Of a stretch of 64,000 nucleotides of DNA, positions 12,372 through 57,247 are shown one piece after another (position 1 is the stretch's first letter; each line of letters starts with the position of its first letter). The translations under genes were made by a program, and so were the position numbers. Source of the stretch: Byssovorax sp. (GTDB lineage Bacteria; Myxococcota_A; Polyangia; Polyangiales; Polyangiaceae). Location of the stretch: NCBI GenBank assembly GCA_025362495.1, contig JANYGI010000139.1, positions 1-64,000 of the forward strand, read 5' to 3'. The notes under the pieces were generated by a model. That model did no database searches. It saw nothing but the letters and a program-made list of their open reading frames with translations, and was not told the DNA's origin.

Positions 12372-13553
12372 ATGGGTCGAAGAGTGAATGTGATCGGCGT
12401 CGGGATGACCAAGTTCGCCAAGCCGGGCGCGAGCGAGGAGTACAACGTGATGGCCACCAAGGCAGCTCGAGCCGCACTCGAAGACGCCAAGGTGGGCTAC
12501 GACCTGATCGAGCAGGCCTATACCGGGTACGTCTACGGGGACAGCACCTGCGGCCAGCGAGCGATCTACGACGTGGGCCTGTCCGGGATCCCGGTGTTCA
12601 ACGTCAACAACAACTGCTCGACGGGATCGAGCGCGCTCTACCTCGGCCGCCAGGCGATCGAGGGCGGCCTGGCCGAGTGCGTGATCGTCGTCGGCTTCGA
12701 GAAGATGGAGAAAGGCGCGCTCGGCTCGAAGTTCACCGATCGCACCAACCCGCTCGAGTACCACGCCGGGGTGATGAACAAGCTCCAGGGCTTCACCGCC
12801 GCCCCGCCCGCCGCGCAGATGTTCGGCGGCGCGGGGCGCGAGTACCGCTTCAAGTACGGCACGAAGCGAGAGACGTTCGCCAAGGTGGCCTCGAAGGCGC
12901 GACAGCACGCGGCCAACAACCCCTACGCGCTCTTCAACACGCAGCTCACGGTGGAAGAGGTGCTGGCCTCGGACGAGGTGTTCGATCCGCTGACGCGCTT
13001 CCAGTGCTGCCCGCCCACCTGCGGCGCGGCGGCGGCGGTGCTCTGCTCGGACGAGTTCGCGAAGAAGCACGGCATCGCGAACCCGGTGTACATCGCGGCG
13101 CAGTCGATGACGACCGACTACAAGTCGAGCTTCGACGAAGACAGCATGATCAAGATGGTCGGCTACGACATGACGAAGCAGGCCGCCAAGCAGGTCTACG
13201 AGAAGGCGGGCGTGGGCCCGGAGGACGTCGACGTGGTCGAGCTCCACGACTGCTTCACCACCAACGAGGTGCTCACCTACGAGGGGCTCGGGCTCTGCAA
13301 GGAGGGTGAGGCCGAGAAGTTCATCTGGGCCGGCGACAACACCTACGGTGGGAAGTACGTCACCAATCCTTCGGGCGGCCTTCTTTCCAAGGGGCACCCG
13401 CTCGGGGCGACCGGGCTCGCGCAGTGCACGGAGCTCGTGTGGCAGCTCCGCGGGACGGCCGACAAGCGCCAGGTCGAGGGGGCGAAGGTGGCTTTGCAGC
13501 ACAACCTCGGCCTCGGCGGGGCGTGCGTGGTGACCATGTACCGGCGCGACTGA
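12372..13553 (+). CDS. SCPx-type thiolase (3-ketoacyl-CoA thiolase)
   Basis: This cleaves 3-ketoacyl-CoA to a shortened acyl-CoA and acetyl- or propionyl-CoA, the last step of beta-oxidation. The 393-residue chain resembles the thiolase part of peroxisomal sterol carrier protein X. The nucleophile is C82 in N-N-N-C-S-T-G-S-S. The second active-site block is H-D-C-F-T-T-N-E, and the final glycine loop is G-H-P-L-G-A-T-G. Three ATGs lie in frame (12363, 12366, 12372). The third is chosen because an AAGG at 12358-12361 then has normal spacing and the conserved start G-R-R-V-N-V-I-G follows at once. It is co-transcribed with the MFE-2-like gene 28 bases upstream. The SCP2 domain that eukaryotic SCPx carries on the thiolase is here on the other protein. 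A hairpin follows. Confidence 0.9.
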
Positions 13554-13579
13554 CGCGGCGACGGGGGCGCGGGATGGCA

Positions 13580-13618
13580 GCGATCTTCACGGGCGTTCAC
13601 GGCGCCTGTGAAGATCGC
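13580..13618 (+). terminator. Strong stem-loop after the beta-oxidation operon
   Basis: GCGATCTTCAC (13580-13590) pairs perfectly with GTGAAGATCGC (13608-13618). An inner GGCG/CGCC pair extends the stem around a 7-base loop. It lies 27 bases after the thiolase stop. No U-run follows, as is common in high-GC genomes. An intrinsic or transcript-end-protecting hairpin is the simplest reading. Confidence 0.65.
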
Positions 13619-13748
13619 CAAGCCTTGAGACCCGCCCGACGAGTCCTGACATCAACGAGCGAGGCCCGGAGCCGCGCGCCACTGCCGCGCGAAGCACGGT
13701 CGGCAGCATTGGCTTGTTCGGAGACACGCTAGCCTCCTCGATGGTGGC

Positions 13749-14741
13749 TCAATCTCGTGAACGCCGCGCCGAGGCAAGAGCGACAATTTCCTCGGCGGAA
13801 GTCGCCGTGGTTGCCCGCGCGATACATTGATCGAGCGTCAGCTGGTCCTCGCACGCTTCGATTCGAGCGCGAGCTTCGATGCCAACCGGAATGTTGCGCG
13901 CCGCGAGGATTGCGAGGACGGCCGCCGCCTTGCCCTTGACGAAGCCCGCGGTCTCCCCCTTGACGAAGCCGGCGCTCTCCCCCTTGACGAAGCCGGAGGC
14001 TTCGCCCGCGGCTTGCCCCTCCGCCCACCTGGCCTCGGCGATCGCCAGCACCTGCTGAATCTCGTCCCTCACCTTCTCGTACGCATCGAGCTCCTCTTGG
14101 GTGAACGTGGCCTTGTTGGCGAGCGCGAGCGCATCCCGATATACCGCGGGCAAATCCGCTGGCACCTCGGTCAGCTCCGGTGCATGAACGAAGAGCCATG
14201 CCCACCGGGATGCTCCCGTATCAGGCTTCCGCTCGGGCAGCTTGGGCAGCTCCAGGAACGCATATTGAACCTGCAAGAGACCAGCGTTGCCCGAGCCGCG
14301 TTCGGCCATGTTCCATCGGCTCAACATGGGCACCGGGGCGAGCCCCTGCGCCTCTTGCGCCGCATCGGGCCATATCTCGAAGTCACAAATGGAGATCGCC
14401 ACAACGTCGCTCAGCGTGTCGTACCACTTGCCGGCTTTGAGCTGACCGACATACGCCTTGCAGGCGTTGTAGACAACGCGGTTGACGAAGCCCGGATGGT
14501 GGATGAGCTGCATCTCCACAACGAAAGTCGTTCCCGCTCGGTCCTTGCAGCGAACGTCCAGGATCGACAGCTTGGCCCCTACCGCCAGCGGGAGTTGCTC
14601 GCTCGGCAGGTACTCGATGGCGTCGATTGCTTGCTCGCCCTGCCGATCGAGCAGATCATTGAGCAATCCCCGAAGAATGTCGGGATGCGTCGCGAAGATG
14701 CGCCGGAATACGAAGTCGTTGGTCAGATCCGCAAAAGCCAC
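13749..14741 (-). CDS. Rpn/PDDEXK_2-family nuclease (transposase-like)
   Basis: This belongs to the PD-(D/E)XK nuclease family annotated as PDDEXK_2 or Rpn recombination-promoting nuclease. The start A-F-A-D-L-T-N-D-F-V-F-R-R-I-F is diagnostic. The nuclease core follows, with D in L-S-I-L-D-V-R-C and the E-x-Q of F-V-V-E-M-Q-L. The middle part (L-L-Q-V-Q-Y-A-F-L-E-L-P) recurs in a broken copy at 15.4-15.6 kb. The C-terminal third is helical and includes three tandem G-F-V-K-G-[EK]-[STA]-A octapeptides. The start is the GTG at 14741, because residues before it have no homology although the frame is open to 14867. Such genes multiply within genomes; this one looks intact. It lies in a debris zone, which fits mobility. 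Confidence 0.8.
   Translation of the reverse strand: MAFADLTNDFVFRRIFATHPDILRGLLNDLLDRQGEQAIDAIEYLPSEQLPLAVGAKLSILDVRCKDRAGTTFVVEMQLIHHPGFVNRVVYNACKAYVGQLKAGKWYDTLSDVVAISICDFEIWPDAAQEAQGLAPVPMLSRWNMAERGSGNAGLLQVQYAFLELPKLPERKPDTGASRWAWLFVHAPELTEVPADLPAVYRDALALANKATFTQEELDAYEKVRDEIQQVLAIAEARWAEGQAAGEASGFVKGESAGFVKGETAGFVKGKAAAVLAILAARNIPVGIEARARIEACEDQLTLDQCIARATTATSAEEIVALASARRSRD
13931..14002 (-). repeat. Three tandem 24-bp units inside the Rpn gene
   Basis: Three near-identical 24-base units (13931-13954, 13955-13978, 13979-14002) share the core CCCTTGACGAAGCC and encode the octapeptide G-F-V-K-G-[EK]-[STA]-A on the minus strand. The array is in frame, so copy number can change without breaking the gene. 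Other Rpn proteins also have variable C-terminal repeats. Confidence 0.85.
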
Positions 14742-14982
14742 GCTTCCGTGGTACCGAGGCCTGAGTCCGGAAGCAACCCGATCACGTCGAAAACCGCGAA
14801 CACGGGGGCCGGCCGCGTCACAGAGACTCGACCAAATGCGAGCCGGCGGGCTCCCGCGTCGCCGCATCCGGTCCGACGGCCGAACGCCCTGGGCTTCTGC
14901 CGTGGGTGGGCGCGCGCAGCGTGCCTACCCGTCGGTCAGCAAGCCCTGGTTGGGCGGCACGCGCCTGGCCCGGAGCGGAGGC

Positions 14983-15385
14983 CTACCGGGATTGGGCTCT
15001 GCCGCGGGCCGAGACCTGCTGCTCGAGGACCTCCACGGCGCGCTGCGCGCCGTGGGAAGCGCGGATAGGCGCGGCCATGGACAGCGCCCGGTGCGCCACC
15101 GCGGCGTTTCCGATTGTCTCACGGAGCGCCGAGGACAGCGCGTCGGAGCTGAAATACCGGCTCAGCGGTGCGGGGCCGAGTCCCTTCGCGCGCACGCGTG
15201 AAGCCCAGTAGTGCTGGTCGAACATGTGCGGAGCGATGATCTGGGGAACCCCCGCGCGCAGCGCCGTCGCCGTGGTGCCCGCTGCTCCGTGATGAACGAC
15301 GGCCGAGAGCCTCGGGAAGAGCGCGGCGTGATTCACCGGTCCGATCACCTCGTATCGCGGATCGCGCACCCCCTCGCCAATGCCA
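14983..15385 (-). pseudogene. 3' stump of a UGT/MGT-type glycosyltransferase
   Basis: Read leftward, about 130 codons encode the nucleotide-sugar-binding C-terminal half of a GT1 glycosyltransferase. Visible are a position like P-V-N-H-A-A-L-F-P, the signature V-V-H-H-G-A-A-G-T-T, A-L-R-A-G-V-P-Q, and the P-x-x-x-D-Q-x-x-W-A block. The acceptor-binding N-terminal half is absent. At about 15385 the sequence switches to a broken Rpn gene fragment in another frame. No start codon or ribosome site suits it, so it is a dead fragment. The original would have been about 400 residues. Confidence 0.75.
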
Positions 15386-15389
15386 GCCC

Positions 15390-15625
15390 ACCCTCCAGCG
15401 CAGCTCGGAACGGCCCAGGTGGCAGATCGGCGGGGATCGCCGTCAAGCTGGGTGCATGAACGAACAGCCAAGCCCACTGGGAGGCGCCTGTCGTGGGCTT
15501 GCTCTCGGGCAGCTTGGGCAGCTCCAGGAAGGCATACTGCACTTGCAAGAGCGTGTTCGCGCTCTGATCCGGCTGCCGCGAGCTGCTTGAAAGGCTCTCT
15601 GTCATGTCCCAGCTTGGTGATCTCT
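15390..15625 (-). pseudogene. Internal fragment of a second Rpn/PDDEXK_2 nuclease gene
   Basis: About 70 codons match the middle of the intact Rpn gene at 13749-14741. The stretch L-L-Q-V-Q-Y-A-F-L-E-L-P-K-L-P-E is identical and the following W-A-W-L-F-V-H-A-P is shared, with scattered differences elsewhere. Neither the catalytic N-terminus nor the C-terminal repeats are present. It abuts the glycosyltransferase stump. It is an older, diverged copy, not a fresh duplication, and suggests repeated insertion of this family at this site. Confidence 0.75.
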
Positions 15626-15835
15626 CCCATTCGACTCCTCCCGCCGGCGCGAGGGCGACCAGGCGAGCGAACGGTATGGCGGCCAACTCGGACGTGTCAA
15701 CGTCCGCCGCTGACGGTCGCGCGGAGCGTCGGGCGTCGTCCGAGCAGGCGTGACGACGGCGCGAATTCCTCGACGTGCTCCGGTCGACGCGCGCCGACGG
15801 CAGCCCCGGTCGAAGCCGCCTCCGAGGCCGCGAAG

Positions 15836-15863
15836 ATCGCGTCCGAGGATCCTCGGACGCGAT
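15836..15863. repeat. Perfect 28-bp palindrome
   Basis: ATCGCGTCCGAGGA is followed immediately by its exact reverse complement TCCTCGGACGCGAT, with no spacer; the centre is GGATCC. The first flanking pair does not match, so the symmetry is exactly 28 bp. It lies in about 580 bases with no intact gene (15626-16204). The rest of that stretch holds only the thiolase fragment below and unremarkable GC-rich sequence. It could be a protein-binding site, a recombination or resolution site, or a remnant of an element end. Confidence 0.8.
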
Positions 15864-15976
15864 TGTTCGGCGGCGATCCCCGGCCGAGCCCGGCGAGGAC
15901 GCTCTCGCGCGAGCGCACGGCGCGGTCGAGGCCGCCCCGACGGCTCCGGGCGCCGACGCGAGCCTTCCGAGCCCTG

Positions 15977-16061
15977 CCAGGTCGAGGGGGCGAAGGTGGC
16001 TTTGCAGCACAACCTCGGCCTCGGCGGGGCCTGCGTCGTGACGGTGTACCGGCGCGACTGA
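15977..16061 (+). pseudogene. Last 85 bp of a thiolase gene (paralogous fragment)
   Basis: These 85 bases match the 3' end of the thiolase gene at 13469-13553, including the stop codon, with 81 identical positions. Three of the four differences are silent and the fourth changes Met to Val. A mostly silent pattern fits a fragment of a second, once-functional thiolase more than a copy decaying after duplication. Nothing upstream of 15977 continues the match. It marks another deletion edge in the debris zone. Confidence 0.8.
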
Positions 16062-16204
16062 GAGGGGCGGACTCGACTCGTGGCGCCCTCGCAACGGCGA
16101 TGCGCGGGCGCCACGGGATCGACTGGATCGATGCGCCGAACGAGCGCAATTCCAGGATAAATCAAGGGCTGACGGGCTGGCTCGCATCCTGCTCAGGCCT
16201 CGAC

Positions 16205-17446
16205 ATGGCCAACGATCTCGCCCTGTCTTCACTCTCGCTCTCCCTCGTCGCCTTCGCGTTCCTCCCGCTGGGCGCGTGCGGCGGGACCACCGAAACGACG
16301 CCCACCGGGTCGACGACCAGTGGCAGCACCTCGGCCGCGAGCACCACCGGCAGCGGTGGGAGCGGCGGCAGCGGCGGCGCGGGCGCGGGGGGCGCCACGG
16401 CGACGAGCAGCGCCAGCAGCAGCAGCGCGAGCAGCTCGTCGGGCGCCGGCGGCAGCGGCGCGATGGCGATGTTTCGCTACGAGCCGGCGTGGACGGGGGT
16501 CACGGCGGTCACCGTCATCGGCGGCTTCGGTACGGCCACGGACTGGGACCCGAAGCAGCCCTATGCCACGCTCGTCAAGGGCGCTGACGGTGCCTGGACG
16601 GCCCCGGCCAGCTTGCCTGATGGAAAGTATCCGTACCTGTTTCAGGTCACCGGCGACGACGCGGCGAGCCCGACGTACAACCGCTATGCGATGGATGGGG
16701 CCTCGTCGGACTTCATCGCCTGTCCGGCCAGCTCGCCGACGTACGGCATGATGAACTCCAATCCGTGCTCGCTGCTCACGCTGCCGGCGCCCGCGCCTGC
16801 CGTGATTCATCACGTCAAAGGCCTCGTCACCTACGATGGCGTGGGCGTCGGCGGGTATCTCGTCCAGCTCGATCGCGACGAGCCGATGTCGCACCACTTC
16901 TTCGAGAACCGCGCAGTCACGGCCGCGGACGGCACGTTCGATCTGCTCAGCGCGTCGGCGTCGGTGCGGATCCAGGTGCTGCACCCGACGTTCCTGAACA
17001 AGACCGACGCCCAGCGCGATCCGGTGGCGCTTTCGGCGCTCCGCCGCGCGCTGTCGTCGAGCGTGGCGATCGACAAGAACGTCAAGCTCGATGCCGTCGA
17101 GGTGGCCTATCACGCGTCCGCCGCGAACCTCCCGGTCGGCACGACCACGCTGCCCACCACCTTCAAGATCAGCGTGATCCCCGGGTACGCCCAGGCGCGA
17201 GCCAGCGTGTACGGCAGCGGTCAGGCCATGATCAAATCGATTGGTGATCCGTGGTTCAGCTCGGCGTACGGCGCCGCGACGGACGCCGCGTTCGACGGCA
17301 CCTTCACCACCAAGCAGGCGATGGAGATGGCCGTCAAGCCCGGGGAAAAGTACTTCTGGGGCACCTGGCAGCGCGGCGCGGCGGCGCCCCCGGGAGGGGT
17401 CCAGTGGGAAGGCGAGAGCATGGTCTTCCCGATCATGTGGCAGTGA
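16205..17446 (+). CDS. Secreted lipoprotein with a CBM48-like/E-set segment
   Basis: The 413-residue exported protein has a signal ending in L-G-A-C (C25) and a Gly/Ser/Thr linker of about 65 residues. The next part (about residues 95-155) has the rhythm of a glycogen-binding CBM48/E-set domain: a strand, G-G-F-G-T-A-T-D-W-D, then D-G-A-W-T-A-P-A-S-L-P-D-G-K-Y-P-Y. A carboxypeptidase-regulatory-like strand pattern (V-K-G-L-V-T-Y-D-G-V-G) follows at about residue 205. The ATG at 16205 is chosen because it gives a proper signal peptide; the open frame upstream is debris. The exact role is unknown. Binding a surface or extracellular glycan is inferred. Confidence 0.65.
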   Translation: MANDLALSSLSLSLVAFAFLPLGACGGTTETTPTGSTTSGSTSAASTTGSGGSGGSGGAGAGGATATSSASSSSASSSSGAGGSGAMAMFRYEPAWTGVTAVTVIGGFGTATDWDPKQPYATLVKGADGAWTAPASLPDGKYPYLFQVTGDDAASPTYNRYAMDGASSDFIACPASSPTYGMMNSNPCSLLTLPAPAPAVIHHVKGLVTYDGVGVGGYLVQLDRDEPMSHHFFENRAVTAADGTFDLLSASASVRIQVLHPTFLNKTDAQRDPVALSALRRALSSSVAIDKNVKLDAVEVAYHASAANLPVGTTTLPTTFKISVIPGYAQARASVYGSGQAMIKSIGDPWFSSAYGAATDAAFDGTFTTKQAMEMAVKPGEKYFWGTWQRGAAAPPGGVQWEGESMVFPIMWQ

Positions 17447-55891: not shown

Positions 55892-57247
55892 GTGCCCCGA
55901 GCGCTCCCGTCGATCCTCGTCGCGCTCGCGCTCACCTCCGCCACCACGTTCACCACGTTCAGCCGGGAGGCGCGCGCCGATCTCGACGACGACGCCGCCC
56001 GGCTCGCCGCGAGCTGGACGGCGCGCGGCGCGATGCTGGAGCGGCTCGATCCGGTCTTCCTCGAGCGCGGACGATCCCGGGTGATCGATCTCGATCGCCC
56101 GGGCCAGCTCGCGAAGACCGAGAAGTCGGGGTGCGTGACGGTGGCGATCCTCGCGGCGCGGACCACGGATCTCCTCGCCGACGAGGGCGACGCCTCGGCG
56201 CACAAGATGCTCGATCCCGCGGCGGCGCCGCTGGCGCCGCTGGTGCCTCCGTCGCCGCACGGCGAGGACGAGCACCGCACCCGCAGCGCGGGCGGTGCCG
56301 CGGTGATCTCGCGCTGCGGCGCGGATTCGTTTGAGCTCAAACGAATCACGGTCGAGACCACGTCGCCGCGCGCGGCGGTGGAGATCCTGGTCGCGCGATC
56401 ACCGGCCGCGCTCGGCGAGATCAGCGAGGCGCTGCCCGAGCGCGCGGCGGGGCTCCTGGCGCCGCGCGGCGATCCCGGCGGCCTGATCGAGCCCGGCCCG
56501 ATCGGCGAGCGCATCGCCCGCGCCGAGCGCCGCGCGCGCAGCGAGGGCGCGTCCCGCGTCGTGAAGACGGTGACCCGCGCGTCGCCCGCGGGTCTCGGGC
56601 GCGTCACGCTCAAGCTCGGCGAGGGCTGCCATCGCCTCGATCTGATGGCCGAGGTGCCGAGCGCCGTCCCGCGCCGGGCCACCGATCTCGACGCCGAGGC
56701 CCATGTGCAGGAGGGCGGCCGCCTGCTCGCGCGCGATCGCGCCGACGTGCCCGACGCGCGCCTCGACTTCTGCCTGGGCGAGCTGACCCTGGTCGACGTG
56801 GCCTTCGCCGGGGCCTCGGGCGCCTCGCCGGTGACGGTGAGCGACGCGGTCTGGACGACGCCGAAGAGCCTCTCTGCGCGCTGGGGCCCGCGGGCGCGAG
56901 CGGGCTTTGCCGGGGCGATGCGGAAGCGCCATGCGCCGGCGCCGGTCGATGATGCCCTGTTCGAGGCCGTCGGTATCCAGGGGATCACCCAGGTGCCGAT
57001 AGCGGTCACTCCGGGTCAGTGTTACCTCGCCGCCGTGGGCTTGATTCGAGGCGACGCGCGGGCCATCCGCCTCGCGGCGACCCTCGGTGATCGCGCCCCC
57101 CACGACGAGGCGCTGGAGCGCCCCGAAGGCGCGGCGATCGCCTTCTGCGCGGGCCCTTCGCGCTCGGCCGTGATCGACGTCGACGTGCGCGGCAACGGCC
57201 CCTGGTGGGCCCTCTCGGTGTGGGGAATGGGCGCCGCTTCGTTCTGA
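55892..57247 (+). CDS. Exported protein with three repeats carrying paired cysteines
   Basis: The 451-residue protein has a signal peptide (residues 1-29) and no recognised family. It is built of at least three beta-rich repeats, each with one cysteine pair: C81/C142, C246/C294 and C377/C419. Each repeat begins with G/Q-C-x-x-(L/V) and its second Cys lies at the end of a strand. Long Ala/Arg/Pro linkers join them. It resembles the lipoprotein at 58664, suggesting a shared domain family. Start is GTG at 55892. The Cys pairs are likely disulfides in the periplasm. Confidence 0.65.
   Translation: MPRALPSILVALALTSATTFTTFSREARADLDDDAARLAASWTARGAMLERLDPVFLERGRSRVIDLDRPGQLAKTEKSGCVTVAILAARTTDLLADEGDASAHKMLDPAAAPLAPLVPPSPHGEDEHRTRSAGGAAVISRCGADSFELKRITVETTSPRAAVEILVARSPAALGEISEALPERAAGLLAPRGDPGGLIEPGPIGERIARAERRARSEGASRVVKTVTRASPAGLGRVTLKLGEGCHRLDLMAEVPSAVPRRATDLDAEAHVQEGGRLLARDRADVPDARLDFCLGELTLVDVAFAGASGASPVTVSDAVWTTPKSLSARWGPRARAGFAGAMRKRHAPAPVDDALFEAVGIQGITQVPIAVTPGQCYLAAVGLIRGDARAIRLAATLGDRAPHDEALERPEGAAIAFCAGPSRSAVIDVDVRGNGPWWALSVWGMGAASF

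Follow-up and report, generated by a model that had tools for sequence, protein, structure and literature searches.

A perfect palindrome in a Byssovorax genome as the probable remnant of a 41- to 42-bp repeat array upstream of a lost gene

INTRODUCTION

Iterons and plasmid centromere arrays consist of direct repeats at intervals of whole helical turns and lie beside the gene of a possible binding protein of the Rep, ParR, or ParB type, and transposases of the RAYT (Y1) kind accompany REP/REPIN palindromes, which are scattered over the genome. Here, we describe a perfect palindrome in a stretch of 64,000 nucleotides from Byssovorax sp. (the window) and relate it to a multi-paralog protein family whose genes are widely flanked by arrays of 41- to 42-bp repeats. 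The family is undescribed and unannotated, and the parts of the literature that we searched contained no account of it or of its arrays.

Like iterons and centromere arrays, the family arrays are direct repeats at whole-turn steps next to the gene of a putative binder. The family differs in that it has no Rep, ParR, or ParB domain (28 members searched with PHROGs, PADLOC, and Pfam and one with NCBIfam), in that it occurs as several paralogs in many genomes, and in that its array lies on either side of the gene according to clade, at a step of 41 to 42 bp. With RAYT/REPIN systems it shares palindromic repeats that adjoin a single-gene family; however, a Y1 transposase domain was looked for and not found in the family, and its repeats are tandem and local, with the palindrome present at only two places in the 10.84-Mb genome at up to three mismatches. 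The units upstream of one member in genome G144 (L126/L173) carry, by eye only, a TTTCACGTGAAA dyad that we take to resemble the core of parS, the site of ParB, whereas other clades have unrelated dyads and the family lacks a ParB domain. Finally, the arrays resemble CRISPR loci as regular repeats beside a gene, but the units of the array in genome G181, described below, are contiguous and degenerate without unique spacers, and the family has no match in the defence library of PADLOC.

RESULTS

The window contains a perfect, spacer-free palindrome of 28 bp at positions 15836-15863 (no strand; arms of 14, ATCGCGTCCGAGGA and TCCTCGGACGCGAT), exactly as a first-pass annotation of this DNA had claimed. 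It is enclosed by a longer, imperfect hairpin or dyad at 15827-15874 (no strand) that appears when the DNA is folded as a single strand; the fold of 15816-15883 has a z of −3.4, and none of 200 shuffles was equally stable. No longer perfect palindrome exists in the window, the next ones measuring 24 bp (at 56324-56347) and 20 bp. The annotation had also called such a palindrome very rare by chance. A first-order Markov model predicts 0.004 palindromes as long as this in 64 kb and ∼0.7 in the 10.84-Mb genome; the length is thus rare for the window and unremarkable genome-wide. Palindrome length alone is no proof at genome scale, and it is the context that carries the case: a second copy with one mismatch in a duplicated segment of 369 bp and a core that matches the consensus unit of a relative's array place the palindrome beyond chance, in keeping with the earlier view of it as more than an oddity and part of something lost. 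The 20-base core of the palindrome has one record, a Demequina, in a collection of 84,980 genomes from which near relatives were possibly omitted, and none in viral contigs.

The second copy, at G000:C98:7815-7842 of the same genome, emerged from the genome-wide search for the 28-mer that had been proposed as a check, run here at up to three mismatches. Both copies lie in a segment of 369 bp (15609-15977, minus strand, against G000:C98:7701-8069 read from 8069 to 7701) that aligns without gaps at 85% identity. The two copies differ by 54 substitutions over the 369 positions of the segment and by 1 over the 28 of the palindrome, so that the palindrome does not appear clearly better kept than its flanks (hypergeometric P = 0.06); the longest identical runs between the copies are of 28 bases, and runs of at least 29 arose in 3,993 of 10,000 permutations. 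A coding function of the segment was considered and ruled out, since the substitutions are spread flatly over the three codon phases (18/16/20) and thus give no sign that it was kept as protein. RNA folds of the whole segment were not more stable than shuffles (z of −0.24 and −0.83), and no Rfam family reached its gathering score in the window. Searches of two overlapping sets of other genomes, one of 58 and one of 182 and neither with a member of the same genus, found only short matches to the segment. Contig C98 is 8.3 kb long, and its sequence on one side stops 213 bp past the segment.

The segment includes, on the minus strand at 15609-15630, what appears to be the vestigial start of a gene (MGEITKL, with its ATG at 15628-15630), preceded by a GGGAG-type sequence that is presumably ribosome-binding-like. 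In the window, the reading frame continues into unrelated debris; in the C98 copy, it reads MGEITKLVANRQSNASVVIAAL up to a stop, which makes 22 codons in the register of the family. Among 183 genomes of the order, this 22-residue start was matched in two, its own and G181, a member of another family of the order, where the match is the start of one open reading frame, MADETKLVANRQ (E = 0.17, weak on its own, the query being short). A hidden Markov model (HMM) of the protein family scored the 22 residues at 7.1 bits over positions 3-20, against 3.4 bits for the best of 2,000 shuffles. Because the start, the upstream motif, the position, and the register agree, we take the 369 bp to have lain upstream of a family member that is now lost; judging from the sequence, it is taken to comprise the upstream region and the first seven codons of a vanished gene.

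The family protein of G181 has 248 amino acids, and members generally have ∼250. We located 95 family places in 30 of the 183 genomes of the order and found members in 44 of 317 genomes of the class, often as several paralogs (up to eight candidates were scored per genome); many of the genomes surveyed are fragmented. The number of places per genome reaches a maximum of 11 and is six in the genome of the window (G000), where contig C82 holds a full-length member and stops 36 bp upstream of the gene. The end of this contig (L118) carries CGTGAAAC. Searches of 28 members against PHROGs and PADLOC gave no match, and against Pfam they gave three families, each by one weak match of a single member; the G181 protein had no match in NCBIfam and no homologues in plasmids, phages, or viral contigs. 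A PDB search with the family returned six sequences at E values of up to 1, the best over a stretch of 55 residues (E = 0.003). No DNA-binding domain was recognised in the members, which look alpha-helical by eye and have a conserved basic, RPTxRR-like stretch near the C terminus. Among the first 14 groups of similar neighbouring genes, the two largest are present at 12 and 8 of the 80 loci, in varying positions, and most of the others are one orthologous set.

Upstream of its family gene, at −286 to −99, G181 has an array of 4.6 copies of 41 bp with the consensus GAAGGGCTCCGAGGATCCTCGGACGCGAGCGCCGGCCGCCG. This consensus holds TCCGAGGATCCTCGGACGCGA, that is, the central 16 bases of the palindrome and the next five of one arm; the whole consensus core is exact in none of the single units. 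The sequence CCGAGGNTCCTCGGAYGCGA occurs at up to one mismatch at nine places in 5 of 183 genomes, of which the two G000 loci account for four (both strands being counted), units of the G181 array for two, and other loci for three. As the reversed-sequence control yielded five places in four genomes, the three stray matches (one each in G038, G180, and G070) are at chance level; they are on contigs without a family member, different from those of the family members, and were set aside as candidates for a link to the family. With two places in its own genome and its core in the array unit of a relative, the palindrome is neither a single occurrence nor absent from relatives, two of the signs that the first-pass annotation had named as speaking against it.

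When a profile of the four G181 units was slid along the gene-strand segment of the window, the top three scores fell at offsets 127, 44, and 86, and the place at offset 4 tied for fourth, which corresponds to steps of 40, 42, and 41 bp. The relic units defined in this way, all on the minus strand, are unit 1, the weakest, at 15934-15973 (offset 4, score −2.4); unit 2 at 15892-15933 (offset 44, score 1.8); unit 3 at 15851-15891 (offset 86, score −1.1), which ends in one arm of the palindrome; and unit 4 at 15810-15850 (offset 127, best score 6.7), which starts with the other arm. From the unit register, the axis of the palindrome (15849/15850) is the boundary between two relic units. When the palindrome was kept, dinucleotide shuffles produced chains of two in 49, of three in 4, of four in 1, and of five in 0 of 300 cases, and a chain of two is not significant; Markov resampling of the flanks around the kept palindrome produced a chain of three in 15 and chains of four and five in 0 of 3,000 cases. 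Within 1.04 Mb (25 loci, both strands counted), the window ranked second for chains of three and third for chains of four; the training array outranks it, and the rows nearest to it (L182 and L180) are arrays adjoining family genes. The C98 copy keeps the register weakly, with chain scores below 0 from two units on. Tandem Repeats Finder (TRF) detected no array in the window.

Whether such arrays belong to the family at large was assessed on 80 of its 95 places (L167-L246), the 15 left out including C82, on a short contig, and several fragments. With periods of 38 to 45 admitted, TRF found arrays within 500 bp of 31 of the 80 genes (18 upstream, 14 downstream, 1 both), and the period was 41 or 42 in all 36 arrays in the 79 kb of flanks; elsewhere, it found 26 arrays in 1.29 Mb, a rate that corresponds to 1.6 per 79 kb. 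In the first 40 regions, with periods of 25 to 60 admitted, the 15 upstream arrays had periods of 27 (2), 33 (1), 41 (5), and 42 (7). An array with a period unlike the rest, nine copies of 33 bp, lies at −411 to −115 upstream of a member (L192) in G048, a genome of the same genus as G181. B-DNA has 10.5 bp per turn, and 41 to 42 bp are about four turns, so that units at this step would all lie on one face of the helix. Repeat spacing by whole helical turns was thus found in 36 of 36 flanking TRF arrays and, at 40 to 42 bp, in the relic units of the window.

The same periodicity appears when flanks are compared with themselves. Of the lags between 25 and 60, 41 or 42 was the best in 26 of the 79 upstream flanks and in 30 of the 78 downstream ones, compared to 15 of 300 control stretches. 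In a per-gene test that asked for a best lag of 41 or 42 with a score of at least 9 in either flank, 52 of 80 family genes passed and 28 failed, compared to passes in 30 of 231 control genes from the same regions (Fisher, 3e-18), the controls being a sample of up to four per region with often coding flanks. Because the genomes of genus g14 are close to one another, the count was also made by clusters at 50% identity, and the test was passed in 19 of 22. The side of the array follows the clade: it is upstream in several groups and downstream mainly in the group whose proteins start like SKQVTDR. Units of different members are related (the 45 best pairs score at least 10.5, and 60 shuffled pairs score at most 9.5) and, in 43 of these 45 pairs, point the same way relative to the gene, although many of the pairs are between orthologs. 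When 13 of 34 unit consensi, chosen by hand, served as queries for chains of four, 49 of 65 top-five matches adjoined family genes, where DNA adjoining such genes makes up 7% of the DNA searched; since a chain search favours any array, this shows kinship of the arrays and no more. For the G181 unit, the window came fifth at −234, tied with a stretch that does not adjoin a family gene. Arrays of 41 to 42 bp that do not directly adjoin the family gene were seen in L202, L220, L224, and L226, ∼1.4 to 2.1 kb past the gene start, and further arrays lie away from family genes in L197 (at +8028) and L241 (at +5474), the unit of the latter resembling the array that adjoins the L241 family gene.

Only part of the units show a clear dyad. 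Inverted repeats that exceeded those of shuffles (P < 0.05) were present in 8 of 34 unit consensi (Fisher, 0.003), which represent 34 of the 36 arrays, the two left out (L214) being near-copies of those of L179. One of the eight is the G181 core, and another is a perfect palindrome of 18 bp in L228; many consensi have no dyad. Four downstream arrays that are related to one another, with 14 distinct units and the register set by hand, have a dyad of seven pairs in which 87.8% of the cells are paired and 17 cells are changed on both sides; none of 500 shuffles reached either measure, and versions with a slid register had one to five such cells. Two stricter measures, four pairs with changes on both sides (reached by 409 of 500 shuffles) and seven further pair types (reached by 406 of 500), were within the range of shuffles, which makes the conservation of the dyad in this downstream clade moderate evidence. 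Among 98 cells in dyad positions, G-U occurs in 5 and A-C in 4; the two are equally rare, and the property preserved could therefore be symmetry and not RNA pairing, although the numbers are small.

The surroundings of the palindrome are a debris zone, as first described. A thiolase tail repeat of 86 bp (15976-16061, plus strand), 95% identical to 13468-13553, abuts the 369-bp segment and may have been left by an insertion or a tandem duplication; the two thiolase ends are in direct orientation and bracket 2.4 kb of debris, and the copy ends at the stop codon. When an empty site was sought in the thiolase surroundings of 18 other loci (up to 1.5 kb of flank), the genes downstream in the window were unmatched. 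Within the zone lie, on the minus strand, a fragment of an Rpn-type gene (15421-15551, ∼80% identical to 14149-14279) and, at approximately 14983-15345, the C-terminal fragment of a macrolide-type glycosyltransferase, which scores below the NCBIfam cut-offs. An intact Rpn-type (PF12784) gene occupies 13749-14867. The genome has 13 PF12784 places, two of them below the curated cut-off.

DISCUSSION

In this study, we found that the palindrome sits in a duplicated upstream segment whose second copy has a family-type gene start, that it is surrounded by relic units in a 40- to 42-bp register, and that arrays of 41 to 42 bp widely flank the genes of the family. Based on these sequence comparisons, the palindrome is probably a unit boundary that survives from an otherwise decayed array of direct repeats of ∼41 to 42 bp each, upstream of a gene of which all but the first seven codons are now lost, and the array would have consisted of helically phased DNA sites for the neighbouring family protein, whose binding we infer. 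The arrays would act as DNA, with the dyad in at least some units forming a site for a dimeric protein. The candidate binder would most simply be the protein encoded next to the array, putatively a cooperative one, and once bound it may regulate the gene that encodes it or form a nucleoprotein structure locally. Within the window, the start of the gene is followed by fragments of an Rpn-type gene and a glycosyltransferase gene, so the pairing of protein and array would be broken, and with its partner gene lost, the array would be eroding.

A possible but distinctly less probable explanation is that the array acts as RNA, such that transcribed units fold into a run of hairpins in a 5' or 3' untranslated region (UTR) and the palindrome is one of these hairpins. 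This would fit the stable fold of the palindrome (computed with DNA parameters), the dyad cells that stay paired in one clade, the arrays of one clade that lie directly past the stop codon in what would be the 3' UTR, and the orientation to the gene that 43 of the 45 best unit pairs share, many of them between orthologs. Yet all 36 flanking TRF arrays repeat at 41 or 42 bp regardless of their sequence, a constancy that follows from helical phasing but not from a role as RNA; moreover, G-U pairs are not more frequent than A-C mismatches, and the window has neither an Rfam family nor whole-segment RNA folds above those of shuffles. We consider it improbable that a chance palindrome arose in decaying DNA, with the duplication and the neighbours unrelated to it. 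The genome-wide expectation of nearly one such palindrome agrees with this, as does the lack of clearly better conservation than in the flanks, but chance does not account for a core that is the unit consensus of an array before a similar gene start in another genus, or for the in-register relic units on its sides.

The first-pass annotation had instead linked the palindrome to Rpn nucleases, as a possible target, resolution site, or end of a lost element. Within 2 kb there are indeed both an intact gene of the Rpn type and a fragment of one, and the 86-bp thiolase tail repeat brackets the debris; against this, only 1 of the 13 PF12784 places is near the palindrome, the 8.3-kb contig of the second copy has no PF12784 match, the 28-mer has just its two genomic places at up to three mismatches, and its 20-base core is in none of the viral contigs. 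No sign of a recombination target or of an element end was found. The reading as a site of an Rpn-linked mobile element is not supported; it is largely refuted, and we rate it as very improbable. Scarcely any credence attaches to an intrinsic transcription terminator, which the strong, G+C-rich hairpin might bring to mind: a T run beside the stem is absent, and there are no terminator-like matches in 13400-16300.

The account of the palindrome as the relic of a protein-associated DNA array has a wider form, the case for which we regard as evenly balanced. The arrays and the family may constitute a two-part chromosomal module of Polyangiales-like bacteria, in which most paralogs have their own 41- to 42-bp array, at least some units with a member-specific dyad, so that a genome would hold several parallel protein-array pairs with diverging specificities; the window would then hold a fossil pair minus its gene. 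In either form, an uncharacterised multi-paralog family of large-genome bacteria is tied to a very regular feature of the adjoining DNA, and a lone palindrome in apparent debris becomes traceable to what is probably a lost gene. If each paralog recognises its own array, every such genome would offer several natural protein-site pairs at a fixed step. If true, this would allow the rules of recognition to be read directly and open the role of the private arrays, be it self-control, partitioning, or silencing, to inquiry.
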